Positions 10,927 through 23,900 of a stretch of DNA of 64,000 nt are shown here, one piece after another. The DNA lies in the NCBI RefSeq assembly GCF_003387075.1, contig NZ_QUMQ01000001.1, positions 5,022,001 to 5,086,000 on the forward strand. The letters are read 5' to 3'. Below the pieces are notes generated by a model, which was not told where the DNA came from, did not search any database, and saw only the letters and a list, made by a program, of their open reading frames with translations. Within the stretch, counting starts at the first letter, position 1. Each line of letters begins with the position of its first letter. The position numbers were made by a program, and so were the translations under genes. The stretch is from Asanoa ferruginea. Its GTDB lineage: Bacteria > Actinomycetota > Actinomycetes > Mycobacteriales > Micromonosporaceae.

Positions 10927-13900
10927 GTGGCTGAAGTCGTGCTGGGTCGAGGTCACCTTGACGGCATGCTCGATGCGCTTCTCGGTATTCCCGCACTCGG
11001 TGACTCCGATGTGCGGGACGCGCGCGTAGAGGACCTGCGGAGATCGTTACGCCGTCCATTGGAGATCCAAAGGCACGACGACGCGAAACGCGATCTTCAA
11101 GCGATTCTCGCCAGCTGTCACGCCTGTTCGGGTGGTCTCAAGACCTTCACGCAGATCATTTTGCGGCACCACCGCGGTGACGAGAGCGCCAAGGCCGCGA
11201 CGCTGGCCCGCGACATCAACGGGCCGATGCTGCTGTCGGCGCCCGACCGCGAGGTGCTCCGCCGCCAACTCGCCGCCGTCCCGATCGGTGACATCGCCGA
11301 CGCGGTCGCCGATGTGGCCGCGCTCGCCGAGATCGACGAGATGCGCTCGTTGCAGACCTGGCGCGACACCGGCAAGGCGATCCGCCTGATGGAACGCCTG
11401 CCGATGAGCAGCGACGGTGTGCCCGCACTGATGACCTTCGTCGGCCGGCTGAGTTCCGCCGTCACCGGCGCGGCCAACGGCGAGCTCGGCAGCTGGCTGG
11501 AGACCGTCGCCGGCGGTCTGGGCGTCGGCCCAGCGACATTGAACGAGCTGCGGATGATCGGCGGCCCGCGGGCCACCGCGACCTCGGCCGCTCCGGAGCC
11601 GTCCACGCTCGCGCTCAACGCCGTGCCGCGCCAGCCGCAGCGTTCCCGGCGTGCTGAAGAAACCGGTTTGATCTGGGGCGGCGTGCCTATTCGCAACCGC
11701 AACTTCACCGGTCGCGACGGCATGTTGGAGCGGCTCGGAGAGGCATTGCGCAACACCTCCAAGGCGTCGGTGCTTCCGCAGACGCTGCACGGCATGGGTG
11801 GTGTCGGCAAAACGCAACTGGTGGTCGAATACGTCTACCGGCACATCGACCAATACGACCTGATCTGGTGGATCGCGGCGGAGCAGCCGTCGAGTGTGCT
11901 CCGGTCGTTGACCGCGCTGGCCGAGCGCCTCGGCCTGGCCACCACCGAAGACCGGCAGCAAAACGCGCGCATCGTCCTCGACGCGCTCGCGGGCGGCGGC
12001 CTGACCTGGTTGCTGGTCTACGACAACGCCGACGACCCCGACACCCTCGACCAGTTCCTGCCGTCGTCGGGTGGCGACGTCATCGTCACCAGCCGCATCC
12101 AGGAATGGGCGGCGGTCGGGCCGGCGATCGAGGTCGACGTCTTCCGCCGCGACGAAAGCGTCGAGCTCCTCCGCAAGCGCACCCGGGACAGCGACGGCAA
12201 CGCGCGCATCCAGGAGCCGGACGCGCGAGCGCTGGCGGAGAAGCTCGGCGACCTGCCCCTGGCCCTCGAGCAGGCCGCGGCGTGGTACCTGGCGACCGCG
12301 ATGCCGATCAAGGAATACATCGAGCTGCTCGACACCCACATCGAGCTGCTCGCCGAGGGCAAGCCGATCAACTACCCGGTCTCGGTGGCCGCGTTCGTGA
12401 CGCTCGCCATGGAGCAGTTGCGCCGTGACTCGCCGGCGACGGCGCAGCTCTTCGAGCTGTTCGCCTACCTCGGCGGTGAGCCGGTCGCGGTGTCGCTGCT
12501 CATCAACGGCAAGGACGCCGACGTCACCGAGCCCCTGCGGAGCATGCTCCGGCAGAAGGTCCAACTCAACCGGGCCGTCCGCGACCTCAACCGGTTCGGC
12601 CTCGCCAAGGTCGACGCGGCACAGCGGATCCAGGTGCACCGGCTGGTGCAGCGGGTGCTGCGCGACACCATGCCCCTCGGGCTGGCGGAGGCCGCGCTGC
12701 GCAACGTCCGCAACATCCTCGTCCAGGCCAGCCCCGGCGACCCCGACGAGAACCCCAACATGGAGTTCCACGCCGACCTGGGTCCGCACATCGACGCCGC
12801 CGACCTCACGAATGCCGACAGCCTCGAGGCCCGCACGGTGGTCGGCGACTACTCCCGCTACCTGTTCATCATCGGTGACTACGCCGGCAGCCAGCGCCTC
12901 GCCGAACGGTCGGTCAACACGTGGGAGAAGGAGACCTTCGACCCCAAGCTCGGGCCCGACGGAGAGATGACGCTGCTGGCCCGCGCGCAGTTGGCCAACG
13001 CGCGGCGCGCCACCGGCGACAGTGCCGGAGCCGCCCCGCTGGCGCTGGACACCTACCACCGGCTCCGCAACAGTCCGCTGCTGGGTCCGAGCCACGAATA
13101 CACGCTGATCACCGGCAACCAGGTCGGTGCCGATCTTCGGATCGCCGGCAAATACCTCGAGGCACTGGCGTTCGACCAGGAGTCCGTCGCGGCGCACCGC
13201 GAAGTCTTCCGGGCCGAAGACGACACCTACACGCTGCGCGCCAAGCTCAATCTGGCGGTGGACTATCGCATGATCGGCAACTTCACCGAGGCGTTCCGGC
13301 TCGACAAGGAGGTCGCCGAATACTGGGAAGACGCCGGTGCCACCGACCGGCGGTCGCTCGAAGCGCAGATGAACATGGGCCGCAGCTACTACGGAATGGG
13401 CGCCTACACGTCCGGTGTCAAGATCATGGAAGACTGGCGGGAGTCCCTCCACTACGTGGTCGGGTCCAACCACCGCCTGGCCCTGCTCGCCGACCGCACG
13501 TTCGGGATCCTGCTGCGCAAGGCCGGCCGGCTCGACGATTCCGCCTCGATGCTGGAAGACACCGAAAAGCGCACGCGGGCCCGATTCGGTGCCAACCACG
13601 AATACACGGTGGCGGCCGCCGTCAGCCTCGCCAACGCGCTGCGCGAGTTGGGCCGGCTCGACGAGGCACAGGCGCTGATCTCCGACGCGCTCGGCCGATA
13701 CAAGTCCGACTTCGGCGAGTTCCACCCGCTGACGCTGGTGGCGACCGTCAACGACGCCATCGTCAAGCGCGCCCTGGGTGAGCTCGACGAAGCGCGCGAG
13801 CTCGACGAACGCTCCTACGCCAAGTTGGCCGAAGTCCTCTCGCCCGACCACCCCTACACGCTGTGCGCCGGCAACTCGGTCGCCACCAACCTCGCGCTCG

Positions 13901-14193
13901 CCGGCGAACGCGCGGCCGCACTGGCCCAGTCCACGTTGATCGTGCAGACCAGCCGGGCGACCTCCGGCGGTGGTGATCCGGCGCGCGACGGCTTCGAGCA
14001 CCCCTACGTGCTGATGCGCGCGATCAACCTGGCACACGACCTGCGCGCGGCCGGATCCGAGGCCGAGGGTGACGCCCTGTTCGCCGAATCGTTCGACGCC
14101 CTCCGCCGGTTCCTGGGGCCGGACCACCACGAGGTGGTCGCCGTCGGCGAAGGGCGTCGCACCGAGGGCGACATCGAGTCGCCCCCCACGTGA
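10927..14193 (+). CDS. STAND NTPase (NB-ARC + TPR) with effector-associated-like N-terminus, FxsT-like
   Basis: This 1,088-aa protein has three parts. Residues 1-85 (MLDALLGIPALGDSDVRDAR ... GGLKTFTQII) resemble the helical effector-associated domain 2 of bacterial conflict systems; this is recognition by eye. After a helical linker, NB-ARC begins at RNRNFTGRDGMLERL (about residue 256), with Walker A GMGGVGKT (289-296), Walker B LLVYDNAD (about 362-369), a VTSR sensor and GDLPLALEQAAA. From about residue 640 there are tetratricopeptide repeats of the kind seen in the FxSxx-COOH system TPR protein (FxsT). The C-terminus is RRTEGDIESPPT. It converges with the HExxH gene with no bases between the two stops. 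GTG 10927 has only a weak upstream GTGGG. Likely a cytosolic sensor or switch; the ligand is unknown. Confidence 0.8.
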   Translation: MAEVVLGRGHLDGMLDALLGIPALGDSDVRDARVEDLRRSLRRPLEIQRHDDAKRDLQAILASCHACSGGLKTFTQIILRHHRGDESAKAATLARDINGPMLLSAPDREVLRRQLAAVPIGDIADAVADVAALAEIDEMRSLQTWRDTGKAIRLMERLPMSSDGVPALMTFVGRLSSAVTGAANGELGSWLETVAGGLGVGPATLNELRMIGGPRATATSAAPEPSTLALNAVPRQPQRSRRAEETGLIWGGVPIRNRNFTGRDGMLERLGEALRNTSKASVLPQTLHGMGGVGKTQLVVEYVYRHIDQYDLIWWIAAEQPSSVLRSLTALAERLGLATTEDRQQNARIVLDALAGGGLTWLLVYDNADDPDTLDQFLPSSGGDVIVTSRIQEWAAVGPAIEVDVFRRDESVELLRKRTRDSDGNARIQEPDARALAEKLGDLPLALEQAAAWYLATAMPIKEYIELLDTHIELLAEGKPINYPVSVAAFVTLAMEQLRRDSPATAQLFELFAYLGGEPVAVSLLINGKDADVTEPLRSMLRQKVQLNRAVRDLNRFGLAKVDAAQRIQVHRLVQRVLRDTMPLGLAEAALRNVRNILVQASPGDPDENPNMEFHADLGPHIDAADLTNADSLEARTVVGDYSRYLFIIGDYAGSQRLAERSVNTWEKETFDPKLGPDGEMTLLARAQLANARRATGDSAGAAPLALDTYHRLRNSPLLGPSHEYTLITGNQVGADLRIAGKYLEALAFDQESVAAHREVFRAEDDTYTLRAKLNLAVDYRMIGNFTEAFRLDKEVAEYWEDAGATDRRSLEAQMNMGRSYYGMGAYTSGVKIMEDWRESLHYVVGSNHRLALLADRTFGILLRKAGRLDDSASMLEDTEKRTRARFGANHEYTVAAAVSLANALRELGRLDEAQALISDALGRYKSDFGEFHPLTLVATVNDAIVKRALGELDEARELDERSYAKLAEVLSPDHPYTLCAGNSVATNLALAGERAAALAQSTLIVQTSRATSGGGDPARDGFEHPYVLMRAINLAHDLRAAGSEAEGDALFAESFDALRRFLGPDHHEVVAVGEGRRTEGDIESPPT

Positions 14194-15477
14194 TCAGTTG
14201 AGGTCGGCGCCGTTGCGTTCCGTCCACTGCCGGCGGATCCGGGCGTTGGCCTCCTCGGCCGCGTGCGCGATGGCCGGCGGCACCGGCTCGGCGAGCAGCG
14301 AGTCGGTCCGGAGTCGCAGTTGACCGACCAGCGCCCGGCCGGCCGGTGTCAGACCGGGCGACTGCTCGATCGACGTCAGGCCCGTGTGCACCTGCATGCG
14401 AGCGGTCGCGAACTGCCGTTGCGCCTCGTCGGTCAGGGCGTCGACCTCGCGCAGCGCGCGCCAGGTGTCGGCCACCCCGACGAACGCGTAGACCCCTTGC
14501 AGCAGACCGGCGAGCGGCCGGGGGTCGACGCGCCACGGCGCGAAGTAGCGGGTCTTGTCGGACGCGTCGCTCATCGGCATGAGGTCGAGCATCGCGCTGA
14601 GCTTCGAATGCTGGAACTCGTGCACGAGGGTGACGGCGAACTCCGCCGCGGAAGGCGGCCGGGTCAACCCGAAAACGCCGAACGCGTGCCGAATCGTCGC
14701 GCTGCGCGCCGAGAGGCCGTCTTCGACCAGCGGCACGAGCGTGCGCAGCCCGGCCCGCAACTCGACCTCCCGTTCGGGCAGGTGCCGGCCGAGCAGATCC
14801 CAGGCTTCCGCGAAGAGCGTCTGCCAGGTGGCGACCTCCGCGGACGGCAGCCGGAGGGCCGGCGGCACGTGATGGCCGTGCCGGTAGGGGTCGACATCGT
14901 CCAACTCCAGCGCGAAGTCGGCGGCGGTGAGCCGGCGGACCGGGAGCCAGCGGGCATCCTCGTGCTCCGCCCGGGCCGACACCTCGACACCGTCGCTGTG
15001 CACCTTGAGCCGGCCGTCGCGCACCCGGAGGACGGCGCGGTAGGCGTCGATCAGCGCGACGCCGAGGCCGGGAACGGAGGCGTGGCCGTCGCGAACCGGG
15101 ATGGTCGCCTCGCCGTCGACACCGGTCGCCGCACCGGCGACCATGGCGAGCGCGGCGAGCTGGGCCGCGTCGGTCCACTGCGGACGACCCTGGAGCGCCG
15201 CCCGCACGGCGATCGCCGCCCAACCACCGACCAGCGGCTTGCCGATCACCTCGGCGAACCGGGCGGGGTCGCTGCGGCGTGCCCGGTCGAGAGCTTCGAC
15301 CACGGCGTCGCGCTCGCTCGCCGGCCCGGGCCAGCGTTCGAGCAGGAAGCCGATGAGCTGGAGGTGCTTGTTCACCTGGGCCGCGCGGAGCGCGTCGATC
15401 GCGGCGGCGCCGCCGCCGCCGGCAGCGAGGCCATCGAAGAGCGACTGCTCCAGCTCGATGACAGCGGTGCTGGTCAT
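14194..15477 (-). CDS. HExxH-type peptide-modifying protein (aKG-HExxH peptide beta-hydroxylase family)
   Basis: The 427-aa protein carries the hallmark HEFQH at residues 286-290 (in TLVHEFQHSKLSAMLDLMP), followed by YFAPWRVDPRPLAGLLQGVY, as in the putative peptide-modification HExxH family found with Fxs RiPP clusters. In many such clusters this domain is fused to FxsB, sometimes inactivated; here it is a separate gene with an intact motif. Members have been linked to 2-oxoglutarate-dependent beta-hydroxylation of peptides, so hydroxylation of FxsA is a reasonable inference. ATG 15477 overlaps the fxsB stop (ATGA); upstream in-frame codons belong to fxsB in another frame. The stop abuts the convergent STAND gene directly. 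Confidence 0.82.
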   Translation of the reverse strand: MTSTAVIELEQSLFDGLAAGGGGAAAIDALRAAQVNKHLQLIGFLLERWPGPASERDAVVEALDRARRSDPARFAEVIGKPLVGGWAAIAVRAALQGRPQWTDAAQLAALAMVAGAATGVDGEATIPVRDGHASVPGLGVALIDAYRAVLRVRDGRLKVHSDGVEVSARAEHEDARWLPVRRLTAADFALELDDVDPYRHGHHVPPALRLPSAEVATWQTLFAEAWDLLGRHLPEREVELRAGLRTLVPLVEDGLSARSATIRHAFGVFGLTRPPSAAEFAVTLVHEFQHSKLSAMLDLMPMSDASDKTRYFAPWRVDPRPLAGLLQGVYAFVGVADTWRALREVDALTDEAQRQFATARMQVHTGLTSIEQSPGLTPAGRALVGQLRLRTDSLLAEPVPPAIAHAAEEANARIRRQWTERNGADLN

Positions 15478-16715
15478 GCCGGTACCTTTCGGGTGAGATG
15501 CGCGATGTCCGCGGTGATCCGACCGCGGATGTGGTCGATGATTCGCGTCAGGTCGGCGCAGTAGACGGACGGGTTGCGGAACCCGGCTCCGGCGCGGTAG
15601 CGGTGCACATAATGGCCGCCACCGCAGACACGCCGGATGGGGCAGCTCGAACACTCGTCACCGAGGGCGGCGAGCCCGATCTGGCGGGCGATCACCCCGG
15701 GGTCGTCGAGCACGGCGTCAAGCGAGTCGCGCCGGATGTCGAGGCCGGTGGCGGCCGCGCCCGGGTAGGCCGACTTCAACGCGTCGACCTGCTCGATCGC
15801 CCCGTCGGTTTCGACGACGACCAGGGCGGCCGGGCTCAGCCCGATCTGCTCCGAGGTGCCCTTCCCGCCGAGCAGCAGGACGATCACGTCTTCGAAGAAC
15901 TGGATCCGCGGTGGTTCCGGGTCCGCGTACCAGCATTCGAACGCCTCGACCAGCCAGTCGCCGTAGGGCGTGGCGCGGTCGTCCGGGCGGGGCGGCGGGT
16001 GTTCCCAGTTGGCGTGCGGCAGCAGGAAGTTGATCAATGGGGGATCGAAGGCGCGCAGCGTGCGGTAGGTCGCGACCGGGTCGGTGGTCGCCGACACCGT
16101 GCACAGCAGACCGCCGTAGTTGGCCCGGTTCTCCTCCTGCCGCAGCAGGTCGAGTGCGGTCGCGACGCGGTCGAAGGTGCCTCGGCCGGCGTGCGTCACC
16201 CGCTGAGCGTCATGGTCGGCCTTGGTGCCGTCGACGCTGACACCGACCTTGACCCGGTGAGCGCGCAGGTGGGCCATCATCTTCGCGCCGAGCAGGACGC
16301 CGTTGGTCTGCACACCGATCTGTAGGTCGCATTCCGCGTCGAGCGCCGTGCGCAGGTCGGACGCGAGCTCGCCGAGTCGGGCACCCAGCAACAGCGGTTC
16401 GCCGCCGTGCAGGATCACCCGGAGGGCGGGCATCCGGTGTTGCCGGACGTGCTGGCGCAGCTTGTCAACCGTGGCCTGCCAGATCTCCGCCGGCATCACG
16501 GCTGGCCGGTCGTGCCAGCTCTGGTCCTCGTGCTGGTAGACGTAGCAGTAGGTGCAGGCCAGGTTGCAGCGCTGGTGCACCTTGACGATCACGTCGCGCA
16601 CCGGAACGGGGCGCCAGCCGGCGCCCCGCAACGGTGTCACATCCAGCTCCCGATACGGCCAGGCTGCCCGTTCCCGCTGCTCGGCGCGAACCGTGGCAAC
16701 GGCCGCCGGGATCAT
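15474..16715 (-). CDS. fxsB: FxsB-type radical SAM/SPASM cyclophane-forming peptide maturase
   Basis: A 413-aa radical SAM enzyme. The [4Fe-4S]/SAM motif is C50-N-L-A-C54-T-Y-C57, preceded by VIVKVHQRCNLAC. A SPASM-like C-terminal cluster region has C355, C358, C364 and C386 (CSSCPIRRVCGGGHYVHRYR ... YCADL). HGGEPLLLG and QTNGVLL are typical of peptide maturases. FxsB enzymes join an aromatic ring carbon to the beta-carbon of a residue two positions later, giving a three-residue cyclophane; the substrate is presumably the adjacent precursor. ATG 16715 overlaps the fxsA stop (ATGA), and its own stop overlaps the HExxH gene start. There is no fused HExxH domain. Confidence 0.9.
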   Translation of the reverse strand: MIPAAVATVRAEQRERAAWPYRELDVTPLRGAGWRPVPVRDVIVKVHQRCNLACTYCYVYQHEDQSWHDRPAVMPAEIWQATVDKLRQHVRQHRMPALRVILHGGEPLLLGARLGELASDLRTALDAECDLQIGVQTNGVLLGAKMMAHLRAHRVKVGVSVDGTKADHDAQRVTHAGRGTFDRVATALDLLRQEENRANYGGLLCTVSATTDPVATYRTLRAFDPPLINFLLPHANWEHPPPRPDDRATPYGDWLVEAFECWYADPEPPRIQFFEDVIVLLLGGKGTSEQIGLSPAALVVVETDGAIEQVDALKSAYPGAAATGLDIRRDSLDAVLDDPGVIARQIGLAALGDECSSCPIRRVCGGGHYVHRYRAGAGFRNPSVYCADLTRIIDHIRGRITADIAHLTRKVPA

Positions 16716-16909
16716 GAGACGAAGGAGCTGAACGCCGAAATGACCCCGTCGGGGTCGTCGAGGCTGTTCACCAGCCGCCGCATCGAAAGGGCAAGAGCAG
16801 GGTCCGCGCCGCTGGTCGCGAGTTCCGAGATCGGCAGACCGGAAACTTCAGCGAGCGGCGCCCACTGATCCCCGTCGGTGCCCGTGTCTTGCAGCGGCTT
16901 ACTCACCAT
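16712..16909 (-). CDS. fxsA: FxsA-type RiPP precursor peptide
   Basis: A 65-aa peptide directly upstream of fxsB. The leader-like body (WAPLAEVSGLPISELATSGA, then LALSMRRLVNSLDDPDG) resembles FxSxx-COOH precursors. The C-terminus is VISAFSSFVS. The family rule is Phe-x-Ser-x-x-COOH; here FSSFV fits, but one more Ser follows, so the end is FxSFxS and both aromatic residues have Ser two positions later. ATG 16909 has GGGAG at 16914-16918. The last sense codon TCA and the TGA stop supply the fxsB ATG. There is no Cys, so thioether chemistry is excluded. Confidence 0.85.
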   Translation of the reverse strand: MVSKPLQDTGTDGDQWAPLAEVSGLPISELATSGADPALALSMRRLVNSLDDPDGVISAFSSFVS

Positions 16910-17045
16910 TGAAGGCTCCCTATACCGACAAAAGTCATTAAAACGGACAGTTCAGTCACAGACTGAGACTCGAAAAGTATGACGAGTGAGCAGGTGCTGA
17001 CGTAGCTAGACAAGCGGCGGTTTACAGAATTTTACGGCCTACTTG
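16910..17045 (-). promoter_or_regulatory. AT-rich gap between the second STAND gene and fxsA
   Basis: This 136-base gap is far richer in A and T than its surroundings and lies directly upstream of fxsA on the minus strand. It holds a 6-bp TCAGTC/GACTGA hairpin with a three-base loop (plus strand 16952-16966); on the transcript this is followed by runs of U (GTTTTAATGACTTTT). It could be an attenuator or terminator between the NTPase gene and the RiPP genes, or a promoter region for fxsA. A TATAGG at 16919-16924 (minus) is too close to the start for an ordinary leader. Confidence 0.4.
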
Positions 17046-20000
17046 TCATGCGGACGGGGGTTCAATGGTGCACTCGATCCGGCGACCATTGACAACGTGG
17101 CCCGCCATGGCATGGCCCCGGCCGAGTTCCCGGTGCACCGCCGACAAGACCGACTCCCGGAGGTCGGCCGCCTCGTCGACCCGGCCGTCCGCCGCCAGGT
17201 CGAGCGCCAGGTTGGCACCGATGGCCAGCGAATCCGGGTGATCCGCGCCTTGCGACTCACAAGCCCTGGCGTACGCGCTGGCAGACAGCGCGCGTGCGGC
17301 CGGCGCGTGGTGCCCACCGGCCAACGCGTAGTCGGTCGCCAGGTTGGCGGTCGCGGCGATGGTCGACGGGTGGCCGTCACCGAGGCGGTCGCGCAGCGCC
17401 TCGCTGGCCGCGGCGTCGAACTGCTGCGCCTGGAGCCGATAGCCCTGTGCCCGCCGGATGGCCGCGAAGTTGACCTTTGCCGCGAGGGTCAGCGGATGGC
17501 GCGACCCGAACGTGCGGCTGTAGGCCGCGACGGCGTCGTGCGCGTAGGCGTCGGCCTCCTGGAGGTCACCCTGCAACCGAAGAGTGTTCGCATAACTGAA
17601 CGCGGCCGCCAGCGTGTATTCGTGGTCGGGACCGAACGCGGCATGACATTCGCGGTAATGCTCCTTGAGCTGCACGAGCGAGTCGGCCAACTCGCCGAGG
17701 CCACGCTGAGCCAGGCCCAGCGTGCGGCGCAGGAGCAGCGCGCCGCGGTCGACCTGGCCGGGCAGCGAACGGCCGGATCCCGCGTACACCGTTTGCAGTT
17801 CCAATAGCTGTGCCCAACGGCCGAGACCGTAGAGGTCTTCGGCGAGCGCGTTGACCGACAGGTGGGTGCGCCAGTCGTCGGCGCCGAAATGACGCAGATT
17901 CGCGGCGAGTGCCACCCGGTCGGTATTTTCCGCCCGCGCGAACTCGCCCATGTGCCGAAGGCTCACCGCGAAATTGTGGCGCCGGGTGGCGGTGCTCGGA
18001 TCGTCGTCGCCGTATCTGCGTTCCCAGCGTTCGAGAGTGGCCGAGTCGATCTCTTTCGCCCGGCGGTATTCGCCGGCCAGGCGCAGGTCCGACGCATGAC
18101 TCGAGGACAGCCTGAGGGTCAATGGATGGTCTTCGCCGTAGGCCGGGTCGAATCGCAATCGACTCATCGCGTCTGCCATGCGATCGCGGGCCGCCTGATA
18201 ATCGCCCAGCGCGCGCAGCGCGTTAGCCCATTCGTGGGTCGCCTTCAGCACGAGTTCGGCACCGGGACCGAGGCCCGGCGCTTCGCGCCACACCGTGACC
18301 GCTGACTCCGCCACGTCGCGCGCGCCCGCGTAGTCACCGATCACATAGCGGTATCTGATCTGGTGGTAAACGGTGAGCAACACCTTCGGCGAGTCGGACT
18401 GGATCAGCTCCGCCGGCAGGACGTGGGCGGCGATCTCCCGGTGCATGCCGCTGGAGGCCACATCGTTGGGTTCGCCCTGGCCCGCGGCGGCGAGCACCTC
18501 ATGAGCGTTGCGCCGGGCGCGGCCGAGCGCCTCCTCGGACAACACGTCGCGAAGCGCGTGCCGGGTGATCGGCTGCACTTCGACCCGCTGGTCGCCGTGG
18601 AGTCGCGCCAATCCGTATTGCTGGACCGAGCGCAGCGCCCTGAGCAGTTCGAGGGGGTCGCCGACCGCGCGGCGCAGGGCGGCCGTCACGTCGCCGACGC
18701 GACCCTGCCGCAACAGCGCGATCGCGACGGGCTCGGAACCGAACCAGGCGAACATCTCCAGGACCAGCATCGCGGACGGGTTGGCCGAGCCGAACTTGTC
18801 GAGCGCGACCTTGATGACGGGCAGCACGCCGGGGGAGCCCTCGAGCCGCTCTTTCAACTCGATCCACGACAGTCCCGGTCCCTGCCGCAACGCCGCGATG
18901 TGTTCCAGGGCCAGCGGCAACCGGCCGATCTGATCGAGAAGCTCCCGGGCCTGAACCTCGCTGAGCGAGACGTCGCGCTTGCGGAGGAAGGCCACCGCCT
19001 CGTCCACAGTGAAGTCCGGCACCTCGATGCCGCTGCTGGTGTTCTCGCGGCCGAGTGCCGGGTCGCGGGTGGTCACGATCACGTGGCCGCCGAAGGTCGG
19101 CATCAGCTGCCGCACTTCCTCGTCGCTCACCCCGTCGAAGACCAGCAGGTAGGGGGTCGGCTGCGACTCGAGTTGGCTGATCACGCCGTCGATGGTCTGG
19201 TCGGCGCTCTGCCCCTGCCGCGAGCCGAGCCGCTCCGCGAGGTCGAGCAGCGACCGGCGGGCATGCTCCAGCTGGTCGGCCTGTATCCACCAGATCACCA
19301 GGTGCTCGTGGCGGTAGCGCTCGACGTATTCCCGTGCGAGCTGGGTCTTGCCGACCCCGCTGAGCCCGTGGAGCACCACCGGCGCGTGCGGGTTCTCCTG
19401 TAGTTCCCGGTGCATCCGGTCGAGCAGCGCGGCCCGGCCGGTGAACATGCTGTCGCGGTCGGGCAGCCCACCGACGATCCGCTCCACCGACGACAGCGGC
19501 ACGGGCTCGATCTGCGTGCGCAACACCTCGTCGGGCCGGATGGCGACGCGCTCCGGTGGCGACGGCATCCGCACCTGGACGGGCTCGGAGCGGATCTGCG
19601 GTCGCGGCCCGGGGATGGGCGCGCGGGCGATCGACTCGGCGGGGCGGGCGACCGCGGCCGCCCGCGCGTTGATCCACAGTGGCTTGAAGCGGCGTTCGAG
19701 GTCGCGCTCGCTGTCGTCGAGTTCGGCGCGCACCTTCAGCGCGAAGACGATCGAGCGGACCTTTTCCCAGGCGGGCGGTGGGCCGCCGTGCAACAGGGCG
19801 GCCACTGTCTGGTGTGAAACGCTTTCGAAACGCTTGGGCAGCGCCGAGATGTCCTTGCTGATGAGCCGCGCGGCCGGTTGGCCGGCCAGGTCATAGAGCT
19901 CATGCAGGACTGCGACGAACTCGCGCAGCGGACCGTCCGGCAACGCATCCGACGCCGGTAACCGGATCGCCAAGCAGCACACTCCGACGGGTGTATAGCG

Positions 20001-20072
20001 TTGCCAAGTTGCGTTGAACAAGCTTGACATGCGGTGTCGCTCGCGAACAACCGGGTGCCCGCGAGAATTCAT
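17046..20072 (-). CDS. STAND NTPase (HTH-like N-terminus + NB-ARC + TPR)
   Basis: This 1,008-aa protein begins with a region common in actinobacterial HTH-type proteins (about residues 46-125: LREFVAVLHELYDLAGQPAA ... VSHQTVAALLHG). NB-ARC follows: DSMFTGRAALLDRM, Walker A GLSGVGKT (236-243), Walker B YLLVFDGVSD and VTTRD. From about residue 560 are TPRs, and the C-terminus is RRIECTIEPPSA, echoing the end of the first STAND protein. It lies upstream of fxsA on the same strand, 136 bases away, and is divergent from the third STAND gene. ATG 20072 has AAGGA two bases upstream; ATG 20030 (MSSLFNATW) is an alternative. It may sense a cue and control expression or action of the RiPP system; that is inference. 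Confidence 0.8.
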   Translation of the reverse strand: MNSRGHPVVRERHRMSSLFNATWQRYTPVGVCCLAIRLPASDALPDGPLREFVAVLHELYDLAGQPAARLISKDISALPKRFESVSHQTVAALLHGGPPPAWEKVRSIVFALKVRAELDDSERDLERRFKPLWINARAAAVARPAESIARAPIPGPRPQIRSEPVQVRMPSPPERVAIRPDEVLRTQIEPVPLSSVERIVGGLPDRDSMFTGRAALLDRMHRELQENPHAPVVLHGLSGVGKTQLAREYVERYRHEHLVIWWIQADQLEHARRSLLDLAERLGSRQGQSADQTIDGVISQLESQPTPYLLVFDGVSDEEVRQLMPTFGGHVIVTTRDPALGRENTSSGIEVPDFTVDEAVAFLRKRDVSLSEVQARELLDQIGRLPLALEHIAALRQGPGLSWIELKERLEGSPGVLPVIKVALDKFGSANPSAMLVLEMFAWFGSEPVAIALLRQGRVGDVTAALRRAVGDPLELLRALRSVQQYGLARLHGDQRVEVQPITRHALRDVLSEEALGRARRNAHEVLAAAGQGEPNDVASSGMHREIAAHVLPAELIQSDSPKVLLTVYHQIRYRYVIGDYAGARDVAESAVTVWREAPGLGPGAELVLKATHEWANALRALGDYQAARDRMADAMSRLRFDPAYGEDHPLTLRLSSSHASDLRLAGEYRRAKEIDSATLERWERRYGDDDPSTATRRHNFAVSLRHMGEFARAENTDRVALAANLRHFGADDWRTHLSVNALAEDLYGLGRWAQLLELQTVYAGSGRSLPGQVDRGALLLRRTLGLAQRGLGELADSLVQLKEHYRECHAAFGPDHEYTLAAAFSYANTLRLQGDLQEADAYAHDAVAAYSRTFGSRHPLTLAAKVNFAAIRRAQGYRLQAQQFDAAASEALRDRLGDGHPSTIAATANLATDYALAGGHHAPAARALSASAYARACESQGADHPDSLAIGANLALDLAADGRVDEAADLRESVLSAVHRELGRGHAMAGHVVNGRRIECTIEPPSA

Positions 20073-20165: not shown

Positions 20166-23100
20166 ATGACCAACAGTCGGCACGGCACGGTGATCACCTT
20201 CTACTCATTCACCGGCGGCACCGGTCGCACGATGGCCCTGGCCAATGTCGCCTGGATCCTGGCGGCGAATGGGCATCGCGTTCTGGTCGCCGACTGGCAC
20301 TTCGAGTCACCCGGTCTCCATCGCTATTTCCGGCCGTTCATCCGATCCGAGGACATCGACCACGCCCCGGGCGTTACCGATCTGATTCGCGGATATGAGT
20401 TGGAAGTCATGCGCGCGGGTGGCCCGCTGCCACAACCCGACCTCGAACGCCTCGCTGACGTCACATCGCACGCGATCCCGCTCGACTGGGAGTTTCCCGG
20501 CGACGGTTGCCTACATCTGCTTCCGACCGGCAGCCAGGATCGCAACTATGTCGCGATCATCGGTGCGACAGGTTGGGACGAGTTCTACGAGCGGCGCGAC
20601 GGCGGCCGGTTCTTCGACGTCCTGCGTGACACGATGCGCGGCGAATACGACTACGCGCTGATCGACAGCCCCAACGGGTGGAACGAACTGGCCGACATCT
20701 GCGCGATCCAGCTTCCGGACGTGCTGGTCAGTTGCTTCCCGCTCAGCCATCAGGGCATCGAGGGCGCGGTCGCGTCCGCGTCCGCCGTGCGTTTCCACCA
20801 CGCGGAACGGGAGATCCGGGTCCTGCCGGTGCCGACCAGGGTTGACCTCGGCGAGCAGGAGAAGGCCCAGATCGGCCGCCAGGTCGCCCGGCAACGACTG
20901 GCGGGTCTGCCGAAGGGCATGCCGGAGCGCGAGCGCGATGTCTACTGGCGATCGGTCGAAGTGCCGCACTGTCCCTATTACTCGTTCGAGGAGGTGCTGG
21001 CTCCGTTCGGCGACCGGCCCGACATGCCGTCTCCTCTGCTCAGCGCCTACGAGTCGATCGCACGGTTCGCCAGCGACGGGGTCGTCGAGCGGCTGCCGCC
21101 GATGAACGAGTTCGTCCGGGCCCGCACGCTCGGCCTCTTCACCCGCCGGGCCGCCGTGGCCGAGGAGAACGTGGCGCTGTCCTACGCTCCCGCGGATCAG
21201 GCCTGGGCCGAGTGGGTGGAGCGGTTGCTGACGGCGGCCGGGATCCGGGTGCACGACGTCCCCGAGGGCACGGCCGAGGCGACCCCGTTGCACGCCCGCC
21301 TGATGGTGATCGTTTCGGCGACCAGTGCCGAAGGCCAGGCCGCCCTGGTCGCCCGCGACGACCGGGGCGCGTTCGCCGTCTACGTCGACGTCGTTCCGCC
21401 GTTGCCGGCGTTCGAGCTCGACGCCTCCGCGTTCGTCGCCGGGCTCAGCGCCGACGAGGCGATCGAGCGGCTGCTGCGCCTTGTCGGGCACGTGGGCATC
21501 GGTGCCGACCTCGACGCCGCGAAGCTGGGCGTGCGGTTTCCGGGCACCGACCGCGAGGTTGTCGGCCTGCCCGTGCGCAACCCGCGCTTCACCGGCCGCG
21601 AGCACGAGCTCCGCCAACTCCGCGCCCACCTGCGCGCACACAGCGGCGACGGGCTGCCCTGGCCGGTGCCGGTGGTGCTGCGCGGCATGGGCGGTGTCGG
21701 CAAGTCCGAGATCGCGCTGGAGTACGCGCACCGGTTCGCGGCGTCCTACGACGTCGTCTGGTGGCTCGACGACGACGCCAAGCCCCTCGACACCGCGCCA
21801 CTGGGCCCGTCGAGGGTCGGCAGCGCCTACCCCCGGTGGCTCGTGGTCTGCGACCACGCCGAAGACCTCGAACGAGTGGTCCAGCGGTTGCCGGCCGGCG
21901 CCGGGCACCTGCTGCTGACCTCGCGCGACACCCCCTGGCAGGACCTGGTGCACGCGCTGTCGATCGACGTCCTGCCGCGGGCTGCGAGCCTGCGGTTGCT
22001 CCAGACCTACCTGCCGACGATCGAACCCGAGCAGGCGATGTCGCTCGCGGCGGCCGTCGGCGACCTGCCGCTGGCGCTGTGCGCCGCCGGCGACTGGCTC
22101 GCGTCCACCGGCACCGGGGTCGACGACTACGTGCGGCAGGTCCGGCGCGACGGTGTGTCCAGCGTGGAGCACACCTGGTCACAGTCGCTCGCACGGCTGC
22201 GCGACGACCATCCACCGGGATTCCACCTGCTCGCGCATCTCTCGACGCTCGCGCCGGAGATCGGCCTCGACATCGTCTACGCCGACGAGTTCGCGACCGC
22301 GCTCGCCGGGGTCAACCCGGCCACCGCCACCCGGCCCTACCGGGCCTTGCTCGTGCAGCAGATCAGCCGGCTGGCGCTGCTCCGGCTCGACGTCGGGCAC
22401 CGCGCGATCCACGTCCACCCGCTGCTCCAGCACCTGGTGCGCGGCGAGGTCTCCGCCTCCGACCTCGACGAGATCCGCCATCGCATGCACGGTGTGCTGG
22501 CGGCGCTGCGCCCGACGGCCGGCCCGGAAGATCCGGCGTCCTGGCCGCGGCTGGGGCTGCTCTGGCCGCACCTCGAGCATTGCGCCGCGGCCGACTGTGG
22601 CGACGAGACCACCCGCGAGCTGCTGCTCGATCAGGTCCGGCACGCCTGGCTCAGCGGCGAGCTCAGCGACGGCCAGGCGCTGGCGTCCCGGATCGGCGCG
22701 TCCTGGCTCGACGGTGGCGCCGACGGGTTGCGACGGCAGTCGCTCCGGCTGCGCCACATGCTCGCCGGCCTCATCCGGGAGCAGGGCGGGTTCGAGCCGG
22801 CGTACGCGCTCGACCAGGAGGTGCTGGCCCAACAGGGGCAGCTCGTCGGAGCCGACCACCCGGACGTGTTCGAGACGACCGGTGGCGTGGCGGCCGACCT
22901 CCGCGCGCTCGGCCGCTACGCCGCCGCGGTCGCGCTCGACGAGCGGAATGTCGCCGCCAGCACGGCGGCCCTGGGCCCCGACCATCCGGCCACGCTCACC
23001 GCCCGGTCCGGCCTGGCCTGCTCCGAACGGCTCGCGGGCAACGTGCGGGCCGCGGGCGACGGCGACCAGGAGGTCTACGAGCGCCGCCGGGCCATCCTCG

Positions 23101-23900
23101 GCGACCACCACCCCCGAACCCTGAGGTCGGGCGGTGCGCTCGGGCGCGACCTGCGCGAACGCGGGGAATACCGGAGCTCGGTCGCACTGCTGAGGGCCGT
23201 CCGGGCCGCCACGGAGGAGACCTTCGGCCCCGACCGGGTGCCCACCCTGCTCGCCTCGGCCAACCTGGCCGTCTCGCTGCGCTGCGCCGGGCTCGCCGAA
23301 CTCGCCGCGCCGCTCCTGGAGGAGGCCTACGAGCAGCTCAACGAGCGGCTCGGCCCCAACAGCCCCTACACGCTGGCGTGCCGACACAGCCGGGCGACCA
23401 ACCTGGTGGCGCTCGAGCAACTGCCGAGCGCCGCCGCCGAACTCGAGCACGTTCAGCTCCGCTACGAAGGCGAGCTCGGGCCGCGCCATCCTTATGCGCT
23501 CGCCTGTGCCAGCAACCGGGCGGTGGCCAGCCGCATCACCGGCGACCTCGGGTTCGCCCGTTCGCTCAGCGACGAGGCCGCACAGGGGATGCGCGAGGTG
23601 CTCGGACCCGACCATCCACACGCGCTCGCCGTACGCATGAATCTCGCGATCCTCCGTGCCGAGGAGGGCGACCTGCCGGCCGCGCGCGAGCTGGCCCGGG
23701 CCGTGGCCGCCGACACCGCCAGAGTCCTCGGTGCCGACCACCCCGACACGCTGCGCGGCCAGGTCAACCTGGCGCTGATGACCGGCCCCGATGACGCCCT
23801 CGACCGGCTCGAAGCGACCCTCGGCCCCAAGCATCCCTCCGTCCGTGCCGCCCGGGAGCGGCGCTACGTCCACCGCACCCTCGATCCCCACCTGTTCTGA
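20166..23900 (+). CDS. FxsT-type multidomain STAND NTPase: MinD-like + TIR-like + NB-ARC + TPR
   Basis: This 1,244-aa protein has the architecture of the FxSxx-COOH system TPR protein. Residues 8-230 are a MinD/ParA-like ATPase (VITFYSFTGGTGRTMALANV, LVADWHFESPGLHRYF, DYALIDSPNG, FPLSHQGIEGA). Its deviant Walker A, normally KGGTGRT, reads TGGTGRT at residues 16-22, so the signature Lys is lost. About 325-440 is TIR-like (VALSYAPADQAWAEWVERLL). NB-ARC starts at RNPRFTGREHELRQL (about 470), with Walker A GMGGVGKS (507-514) and LVVCDHAED about 45 residues later, a shortened spacing. TPRs fill about 840-1235. It ends RRYVHRTLDPHLF. The hydrolase gene begins two bases after its stop. Confidence 0.85.
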   Translation: MTNSRHGTVITFYSFTGGTGRTMALANVAWILAANGHRVLVADWHFESPGLHRYFRPFIRSEDIDHAPGVTDLIRGYELEVMRAGGPLPQPDLERLADVTSHAIPLDWEFPGDGCLHLLPTGSQDRNYVAIIGATGWDEFYERRDGGRFFDVLRDTMRGEYDYALIDSPNGWNELADICAIQLPDVLVSCFPLSHQGIEGAVASASAVRFHHAEREIRVLPVPTRVDLGEQEKAQIGRQVARQRLAGLPKGMPERERDVYWRSVEVPHCPYYSFEEVLAPFGDRPDMPSPLLSAYESIARFASDGVVERLPPMNEFVRARTLGLFTRRAAVAEENVALSYAPADQAWAEWVERLLTAAGIRVHDVPEGTAEATPLHARLMVIVSATSAEGQAALVARDDRGAFAVYVDVVPPLPAFELDASAFVAGLSADEAIERLLRLVGHVGIGADLDAAKLGVRFPGTDREVVGLPVRNPRFTGREHELRQLRAHLRAHSGDGLPWPVPVVLRGMGGVGKSEIALEYAHRFAASYDVVWWLDDDAKPLDTAPLGPSRVGSAYPRWLVVCDHAEDLERVVQRLPAGAGHLLLTSRDTPWQDLVHALSIDVLPRAASLRLLQTYLPTIEPEQAMSLAAAVGDLPLALCAAGDWLASTGTGVDDYVRQVRRDGVSSVEHTWSQSLARLRDDHPPGFHLLAHLSTLAPEIGLDIVYADEFATALAGVNPATATRPYRALLVQQISRLALLRLDVGHRAIHVHPLLQHLVRGEVSASDLDEIRHRMHGVLAALRPTAGPEDPASWPRLGLLWPHLEHCAAADCGDETTRELLLDQVRHAWLSGELSDGQALASRIGASWLDGGADGLRRQSLRLRHMLAGLIREQGGFEPAYALDQEVLAQQGQLVGADHPDVFETTGGVAADLRALGRYAAAVALDERNVAASTAALGPDHPATLTARSGLACSERLAGNVRAAGDGDQEVYERRRAILGDHHPRTLRSGGALGRDLRERGEYRSSVALLRAVRAATEETFGPDRVPTLLASANLAVSLRCAGLAELAAPLLEEAYEQLNERLGPNSPYTLACRHSRATNLVALEQLPSAAAELEHVQLRYEGELGPRHPYALACASNRAVASRITGDLGFARSLSDEAAQGMREVLGPDHPHALAVRMNLAILRAEEGDLPAARELARAVAADTARVLGADHPDTLRGQVNLALMTGPDDALDRLEATLGPKHPSVRAARERRYVHRTLDPHLF

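Follow-up and report, generated by a model that had tools for sequence, protein, structure and literature searches.

Precursors of the FxSxx-COOH family end in Phe-x-Ser, exactly two further residues and the carboxyl terminus. The window analyzed here, the whole 64,000-nucleotide stretch of Asanoa ferruginea DNA, encodes a precursor that ends in FSSFVS, where two F-x-S units adjoin, and the question is whether the radical SAM enzyme encoded beside it makes one ring or two. Our preferred reading of the sequence comparisons is that the peptide probably receives one Phe60-Ser62 cyclophane and ends in a variable tail, a second ring being possible and not required.

A variant precursor in an FxSxx operon

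The features on which the analysis rests are as follows (window coordinates).

10927..14193, plus strand: convergent gene with EAD2, VMAP-M0, NB-ARC and TPR (NF040586, 829 bits)
14194..15477, minus strand: separate HExxH-type alpha-ketoglutarate peptide hydroxylase, 427 aa (TIGR04267, 160 bits, cut-off 40)
15474..16715, minus strand: fxsB, radical SAM/SPASM cyclophane synthase family, 413 aa (TIGR04269, 443 bits, cut-off 370)
16712..16715, minus strand: ATGA, 4 bases, shared by the fxsA stop and the fxsB start
16712..16909, minus strand: fxsA-like precursor, 65 aa, C-terminus ISAFSSFVS
16715..16723, minus strand: second F-x-S, Phe63-Val64-Ser65-COOH, variable tail and optional second site
16724..16732, minus strand: first F-x-S, Phe60-Ser61-Ser62, predicted cyclophane site
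16916..16921, minus strand: AGGGAG, by sequence reading the likely ribosome-binding site of fxsA, 5' of its ATG
17046..20072, minus strand: FxSxx-system NB-ARC/TPR protein, upstream (NF040586, 652 bits, cut-off 300; NB-ARC, TPR)
20166..23900, plus strand: divergent gene, KGGVGR/ParA-like with TIR-like, STAND NTPase and TPR parts (NF040586, 686 bits; NF047398, 98 bits; domains TIR_2, nSTAND_NTPase5, TPR)

The precursor gene starts with ATG at 16909. On the minus strand, positions 16741-16712 read ATT TCG GCG TTC AGC TCC TTC GTC TCA TGA (I S A F S S F V S stop), so the FSSFVS ending and its doubled F-x-S, which an earlier note on this DNA had pointed out, are borne out. The same holds for its claim that the TCA codon supplies the A of the overlapping fxsB start: the fxsB ATG consists of the A of TCA, the last fxsA codon, and the TG of the TGA stop. 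It had also been right to read the locus as FxsA, FxsB and HExxH enzyme. FxsB scores above the TIGR04269 cut-off and has both the CxxxCxxC and the SPASM cysteines, which align with those of ChlB (PDB 9gm3, 229 bits) as CNLACTYC and CSSC...C...C. The HExxH gene scores above the TIGR04267 cut-off and is intact, its HEFQH aligning with HEFQH of PDB 22nu and HEHRH of ChlH (8s5f). Its start is most likely at 15477, as against the mechanically listed ORF 14194-15654; it overlaps the fxsB stop by a second ATGA (15474-15477), and the last residue of FxsB is Ala (GCA). PDB 22nu and 22ob, whose only label is 'Radical SAM core domain-containing protein', align with the HExxH enzyme (14194-15477) along nearly its entire length (207 bits) and appear to be a solved HExxH part of its family.

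The precursor thus lies in full system context, beside FxsB at 443 bits, the HExxH enzyme at 160 bits and TPR genes at 652-829 bits. Each of the FxsB, HExxH and TPR genes passes its model, and the locus is an FxSxx system. The window genome (9.07 Mb, single contig) holds one copy of this FxsA and one FxsB over the cut-off.

Between 10927 and 23900 a single precursor is flanked by three different genes that score as FxSxx-system TPR genes, and their N-terminal parts differ: none is recognized in one, KGGVGR/ParA occurs with TIR in another and EAD2 with VMAP-M0 in the third. The HExxH gene and the convergent gene end on adjacent bases (14193/14194), which leaves no space for a terminator between them. 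A comparison with an anti-phage library returned weak matches only, to general radical SAM (viperin) and ParA-like proteins.

The precursor itself falls outside the standard family model. It scores 20 bits against TIGR04268 (cut-off 28), compared with 51 bits for a canonical FNSAF precursor, and it does not have the TIGR04268 ending: three residues follow its first F-x-S and none follows the second. Among eight related precursors from its clade (see below), seven were also below the cut-off (13-25 bits) and one reached 31.9. The window FxsA aligns nearly gap-free with the fxsB-adjacent precursors of relatives. These comparisons indicate that it is a variant outside TIGR04268 that works like an FxSxx precursor.

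A clade of precursors with long tails

We collected 80 fxsB neighbourhoods from GTDB genomes, added 30 loci with fused FxsB-HExxH enzymes, and searched genomes of the family (355) and of the class (395), one per species, for precursors with an alignment of the nearest relatives. On the FxsB tree the window falls in a clade of 29 rows (SH-aLRT 99-100) in which every precursor extends past FxSxx and every tail, counted from the first Phe, has at least six residues. The class-wide search of 395 genomes found no further member, its next best match (L149) being another branch, and the clade therefore looks confined to Micromonosporaceae.

The precursors have tails of two kinds. Canonical ones end in FxSxx-COOH, as in FNSAL, FQSSI and FGSSI. 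The second kind, to which the window belongs, has ...DDPDGVISAF with at least five residues after it. Its tails include FQSFASGR, FQSFASER, FGSFVSDS, FASFVSTD, FTSFISEA, FQSFTSA, FQSFTSS, FQSFTSAS and FQSYASS; FESFVET, FGSFVTED, FGSFVAED, FGSFITED, FSSFIDEP, FSSFIDKS, FSSFIASP and FSSFLDES; and FQSAVS, FGSAIQPED, FGSAFPED, FSSLTPPPNP, FQSVTPDV and FQNYAFQNLAS. An FQSFTS ending with the register and end of the window tail occurs in three genomes. An aromatic residue at position 4 and Ser at position 6 are found together in 13 of the 27 distinct clade tails. Aligning the FxsA C-termini, the check that had been proposed for this ending, thus establishes that F-x-S/N plus a second aromatic-x-Ser recurs in relatives and is no one-off. 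The tail comparison and the counts led us to reject chance as the cause of the clade's tail pattern.

Exactly eight residues make up 15 of the 27 distinct clade tails, and six residues 5 of them. The sister of the window on the FxsB tree is the FSSFIDEP/FSSFIASP group (support 91-93). Since clade tails run past FxSxx, usually to eight residues, the window tail is more likely an eight-residue tail minus two, judged from these sequences, than FxSxx plus one. The 'one extra Ser' of the earlier note accordingly describes the ending against the FxSxx-COOH rule only; compared with the closest relatives, whose tails usually have eight residues, the tail is short by two.

Several further precursors were noted at related loci. 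In L007 (1507-1683, precursor and tail), and identically in L119, a 15-base tandem duplication gives AFQNY-AFQNL-AS; in L007 the duplicated five-codon unit, GCCTTCCAAAACTAC-GCCTTCCAGAACTTA, encodes two F-x-N units. These are intact and five residues apart, and the FxsB of L007 is the one most like the window's (63%). By its sequence the L007 precursor would be a natural two-site substrate. Two Actinoplanes precursors outside the clade (L034:5802-5975 and L058:5772-5993) end in FTNFVS-COOH, near the window's FSSFVS; on their distant FxsB branch this is apparent convergence. In many Streptomyces loci (L060, L061, L064, L066, L067, and likewise L070, L074, L076, L079, L082) the ORF that precedes fxsB has the C-terminus ...HYEDAP or ...YYEDAP-COOH, which amounts to a Tyr-x-Asp core in place of F-x-S; YxdB is reported to cross-link this kind of pair (PMC11002830). 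His replaces Phe in the precursors AAHSTSV, AAHSQAV, AAHNTTASNTTARK and AAHSSSS of L010, L015 and L257; those of L010 and L015 share their loci with an FxsB 56-57% identical to the window's.

Conservation of the two F-x-S units

We placed 75 FxsB-linked precursors on the FxsB tree and counted changes along it; all change counts are minimum numbers, and the trees come from rapid searches in which several forks have weak support. Tails were read off by pattern matching, with L152, L164 and L247 excluded from the counts. The aromatic residue at position 1 is present in 75/75 precursors with no change, and Ser/Asn at position 3 in 73/75 with one change (two His-x-Thr peptides). An aromatic at position 4 occurs in 41/75, with at least 12 changes, and Ser at position 6 in 21 of the 52 tails long enough to have it, again with at least 12. 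Two contiguous rings would lead one to expect that selection keeps both aromatic-x-Ser units across relatives, which is not the pattern seen. Because the aromatic and Ser of the second unit are less constrained than those of the first, the second F-x-S does not look obligatory, and the contrast between 0 and 1 changes at positions 1 and 3 and 12 each for the second aromatic and Ser6 favours one obligatory ring. The changes in the second unit lower the chance of a second ring in this species.

Individual branches illustrate this lability. In the sister group of the window FSSF[IL] is shared, with Asp or Ala at position 6. Inside the FQSFTS group, FQSAVS-COOH (L136) has lost the second Phe and kept the terminal Ser. 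Among the precursors of fused FxsB-HExxH enzymes, 5 of 30 end in FGSFI or FSSFI, and L040 and L044 end in FNNYV and FNNFM, with an aromatic at position 4 and no residue 6. Because the aromatic is kept where the peptide stops at residue 5 (FGSFI, FSSFI, FNNYV, FNNFM, FNNFI), it would appear to have a role independent of a second ring, perhaps packing in the enzyme.

The proposed modification

We infer the chemistry, the ring count and the order of steps as follows. The gene product would be a ribosomal FxSxx-type peptide precursor of a variant clade, with a tail past the FxSxx-COOH end. FxsB would bind its N-terminal part and join the Phe60 ring to the Ser62 beta-carbon, giving one three-residue cyclophane (-2 H); by analogy with MscB, the link may run from Phe C4 to Ser C-beta. 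The separate HExxH enzyme would then probably hydroxylate a residue (+16 Da). Phe63-Val64-Ser65 would be a hydrophobic, variable C-terminal tail that resembles a second site, and it would end at Ser65 because the stop codon is part of the ATGA by which fxsA and fxsB are coupled. A second ring would not be required for function in the clade.

The strongest competitor is that FxsB cross-links both F-x-S units into two contiguous three-residue cyclophanes (-4 H), the second site being facultative. An aromatic-x-S/N-aromatic-x-S motif is present in 18 of the 75 rows, including the FTNFVS-COOH precursors; these rows lie in different parts of the FxsB tree, also outside the clade. The precursor beside the FxsB most like the window's (63%) carries the tandem AFQNY-AFQNL unit. 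Ser is more frequent at position 6 than at positions 7-8 (14/27 versus 7/40; Fisher p 0.006, with kinship ignored). Among six informative tree-independent pairs, loss of the second aromatic is accompanied by loss of Ser6 more often than the reverse (about 2-3 as against 0.2-0.5), numbers far too small for significance. This enrichment and these pairs are what a second ring would predict, and to that extent they speak against a single one; so, by analogy, does the closest solved relative, ChlB, which going by the title of a cited paper is one enzyme that makes several rings. Against two rings stand the 12 changes each in the second aromatic and Ser6, the absence of the second site from the window's sister group, the position of the second-site Ser as the C-terminal residue in the window, and the position 4 aromatics of peptides in which residue 6 does not exist. 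We regard two rings as rather unlikely. The more specific idea that one FxsB makes adjacent rings, the second on the C-terminal Ser, and that clade members turn this ring on or off through changes at residues 4 and 6 of a free tail is likewise unlikely in our estimate.

The suggestion in the earlier note that both units could be cross-linked therefore survives in part: the double motif recurs in relatives, but conservation favours one obligatory ring. The note had said that many homologues with the same extra residue and proven single rings would count against it; homologues with the extra residue do exist, which bears out half of this objection.

It had further suggested that the last codon, TCA for Ser, may persist because of translational coupling rather than chemistry, as it supplies the A of the fxsB ATG. 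The ATGA overlap is present, a clear ribosome-binding site was not seen just 5' of fxsB, and in a set of 32 related loci the precursor ends in Ser in 9 of 15 with a possible 4-base overlap versus 4 of 17 without (p 0.07, on sequences that share ancestry). However, ATGA needs just a codon that ends in A (GTGA, one that ends in G); Val64 as GTA or GTG could serve, the residue at the window's own fxsB/HExxH junction is Ala, and in relatives with the overlap Arg, Glu, Thr, Val and Pro are also found in last place. Ser6 is moreover internal, where it would be useless for coupling, in FASGR, FVSDS, FVSTD, FISEA, FTSA and FTSS. The junctions with other final residues and the internal Ser6 leave the proposal unsupported, and on these grounds we discarded the idea that coupling alone accounts for the Ser; a codon kept for coupling with no chemical role is very unlikely. 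Since Ser is last more often where the overlap is possible, coupling may have favoured the choice of TCA/TCG without explaining the residue.

It is also highly improbable that the residues after the ring serve as a follower, to be hydroxylated or cleaved off by the HExxH enzyme or a protease, on the model of PflC and PosC, whose oxidative action is at a C-terminal ARMD. HExxH enzymes that cleave the peptide backbone oxidatively are known (PMC12636437) and most clade members have a separate HExxH gene, but such enzymes also accompany tail-less precursors (FNSAL or another FxSxx end), and a conserved motif comparable to ARMD is absent from the tail. That the second unit alone is cross-linked, the window having lost the last two residues of a textbook FxSxx-COOH tail (FASGR, FVSDS, FASER), is scarcely credible: the 15 of 27 distinct tails with exactly eight residues do put this unit in the FxSxx-COOH register, but position 6 varies in the clade among Ser, Thr, Ala, Asp, Glu, Pro and Gln, and position 3 is invariably Ser/Asn.

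The clade is of interest as a group of FxSxx-like precursors, so far from Micromonosporaceae, that the standard family model mostly misses. FSSFVS, FQSFTS, FQSAVS, FSSFIDEP, FSSFI and FQNYAFQNLAS form a natural series for the question of one or two rings, and the same series probes what FxsB needs after the ring. If the second ring forms, short tail changes could add adjacent rings; otherwise the FxSxx-COOH rule is less strict than the name implies.

Comparison with known systems

The window precursor resembles the TIGR04268 FxSxx-COOH peptides in its homologous N-terminal part, in a conserved F-x-S near the C-terminus and in adjoining FxsB, HExxH and FxSxx TPR genes. It differs in having three residues after F-x-S, not two, and, like most of its clade, in scoring below the model's cut-off.

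We take MscB to belong to the FxsB family. The MscA/MscB triceptide likewise involves a SPASM radical SAM enzyme and a link from Phe to Ser at i+2, reported as Phe C4 to Ser C-beta (PMC11002830); the window peptide, predicted from sequence, differs in having a further aromatic and a Ser beyond the ring site. Its motif and enzyme family make it a candidate for the triceptide class, in which a C-C cyclophane connects an aromatic to the beta-carbon of residue i+2.

Among solved enzymes, ChlB and ChlH of Chlorogloeopsis (9gm3, 8s5f) offer the nearest comparison. ChlB, which a title cited in PMC12636437 calls a multiple cyclophane synthase, is the closest solved radical SAM relative (229 bits), and ChlH is a relative of the window HExxH enzyme (39 bits). 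The window FxsB, in contrast, is an actinobacterial FxSxx enzyme, and the likeness covers the enzymes, not the ChlA peptide.

At the level of the locus, the window corresponds to the modules for FxSxx peptide processing that Kaur et al. 2020 (PMC7159879) describe as coupled to AP-ATPase/TPR conflict systems. Common to both are a precursor, a radical SAM-SPASM enzyme, an HExxH zincin-like gene, NB-ARC/TPR proteins, a ParA/MinD-like fusion and an EAD2/VMAP-M0 protein, all in close proximity. The window differs in that a MoxR or vWA gene was not recognized among the neighbours scanned. The HExxH protein was read as a peptidase in PMC7159879 and as a hydroxylase in later work (PMC12636437), and the peptide of the AP-ATPase conflict modules has been suggested to be a toxin or signal (PMC7159879).
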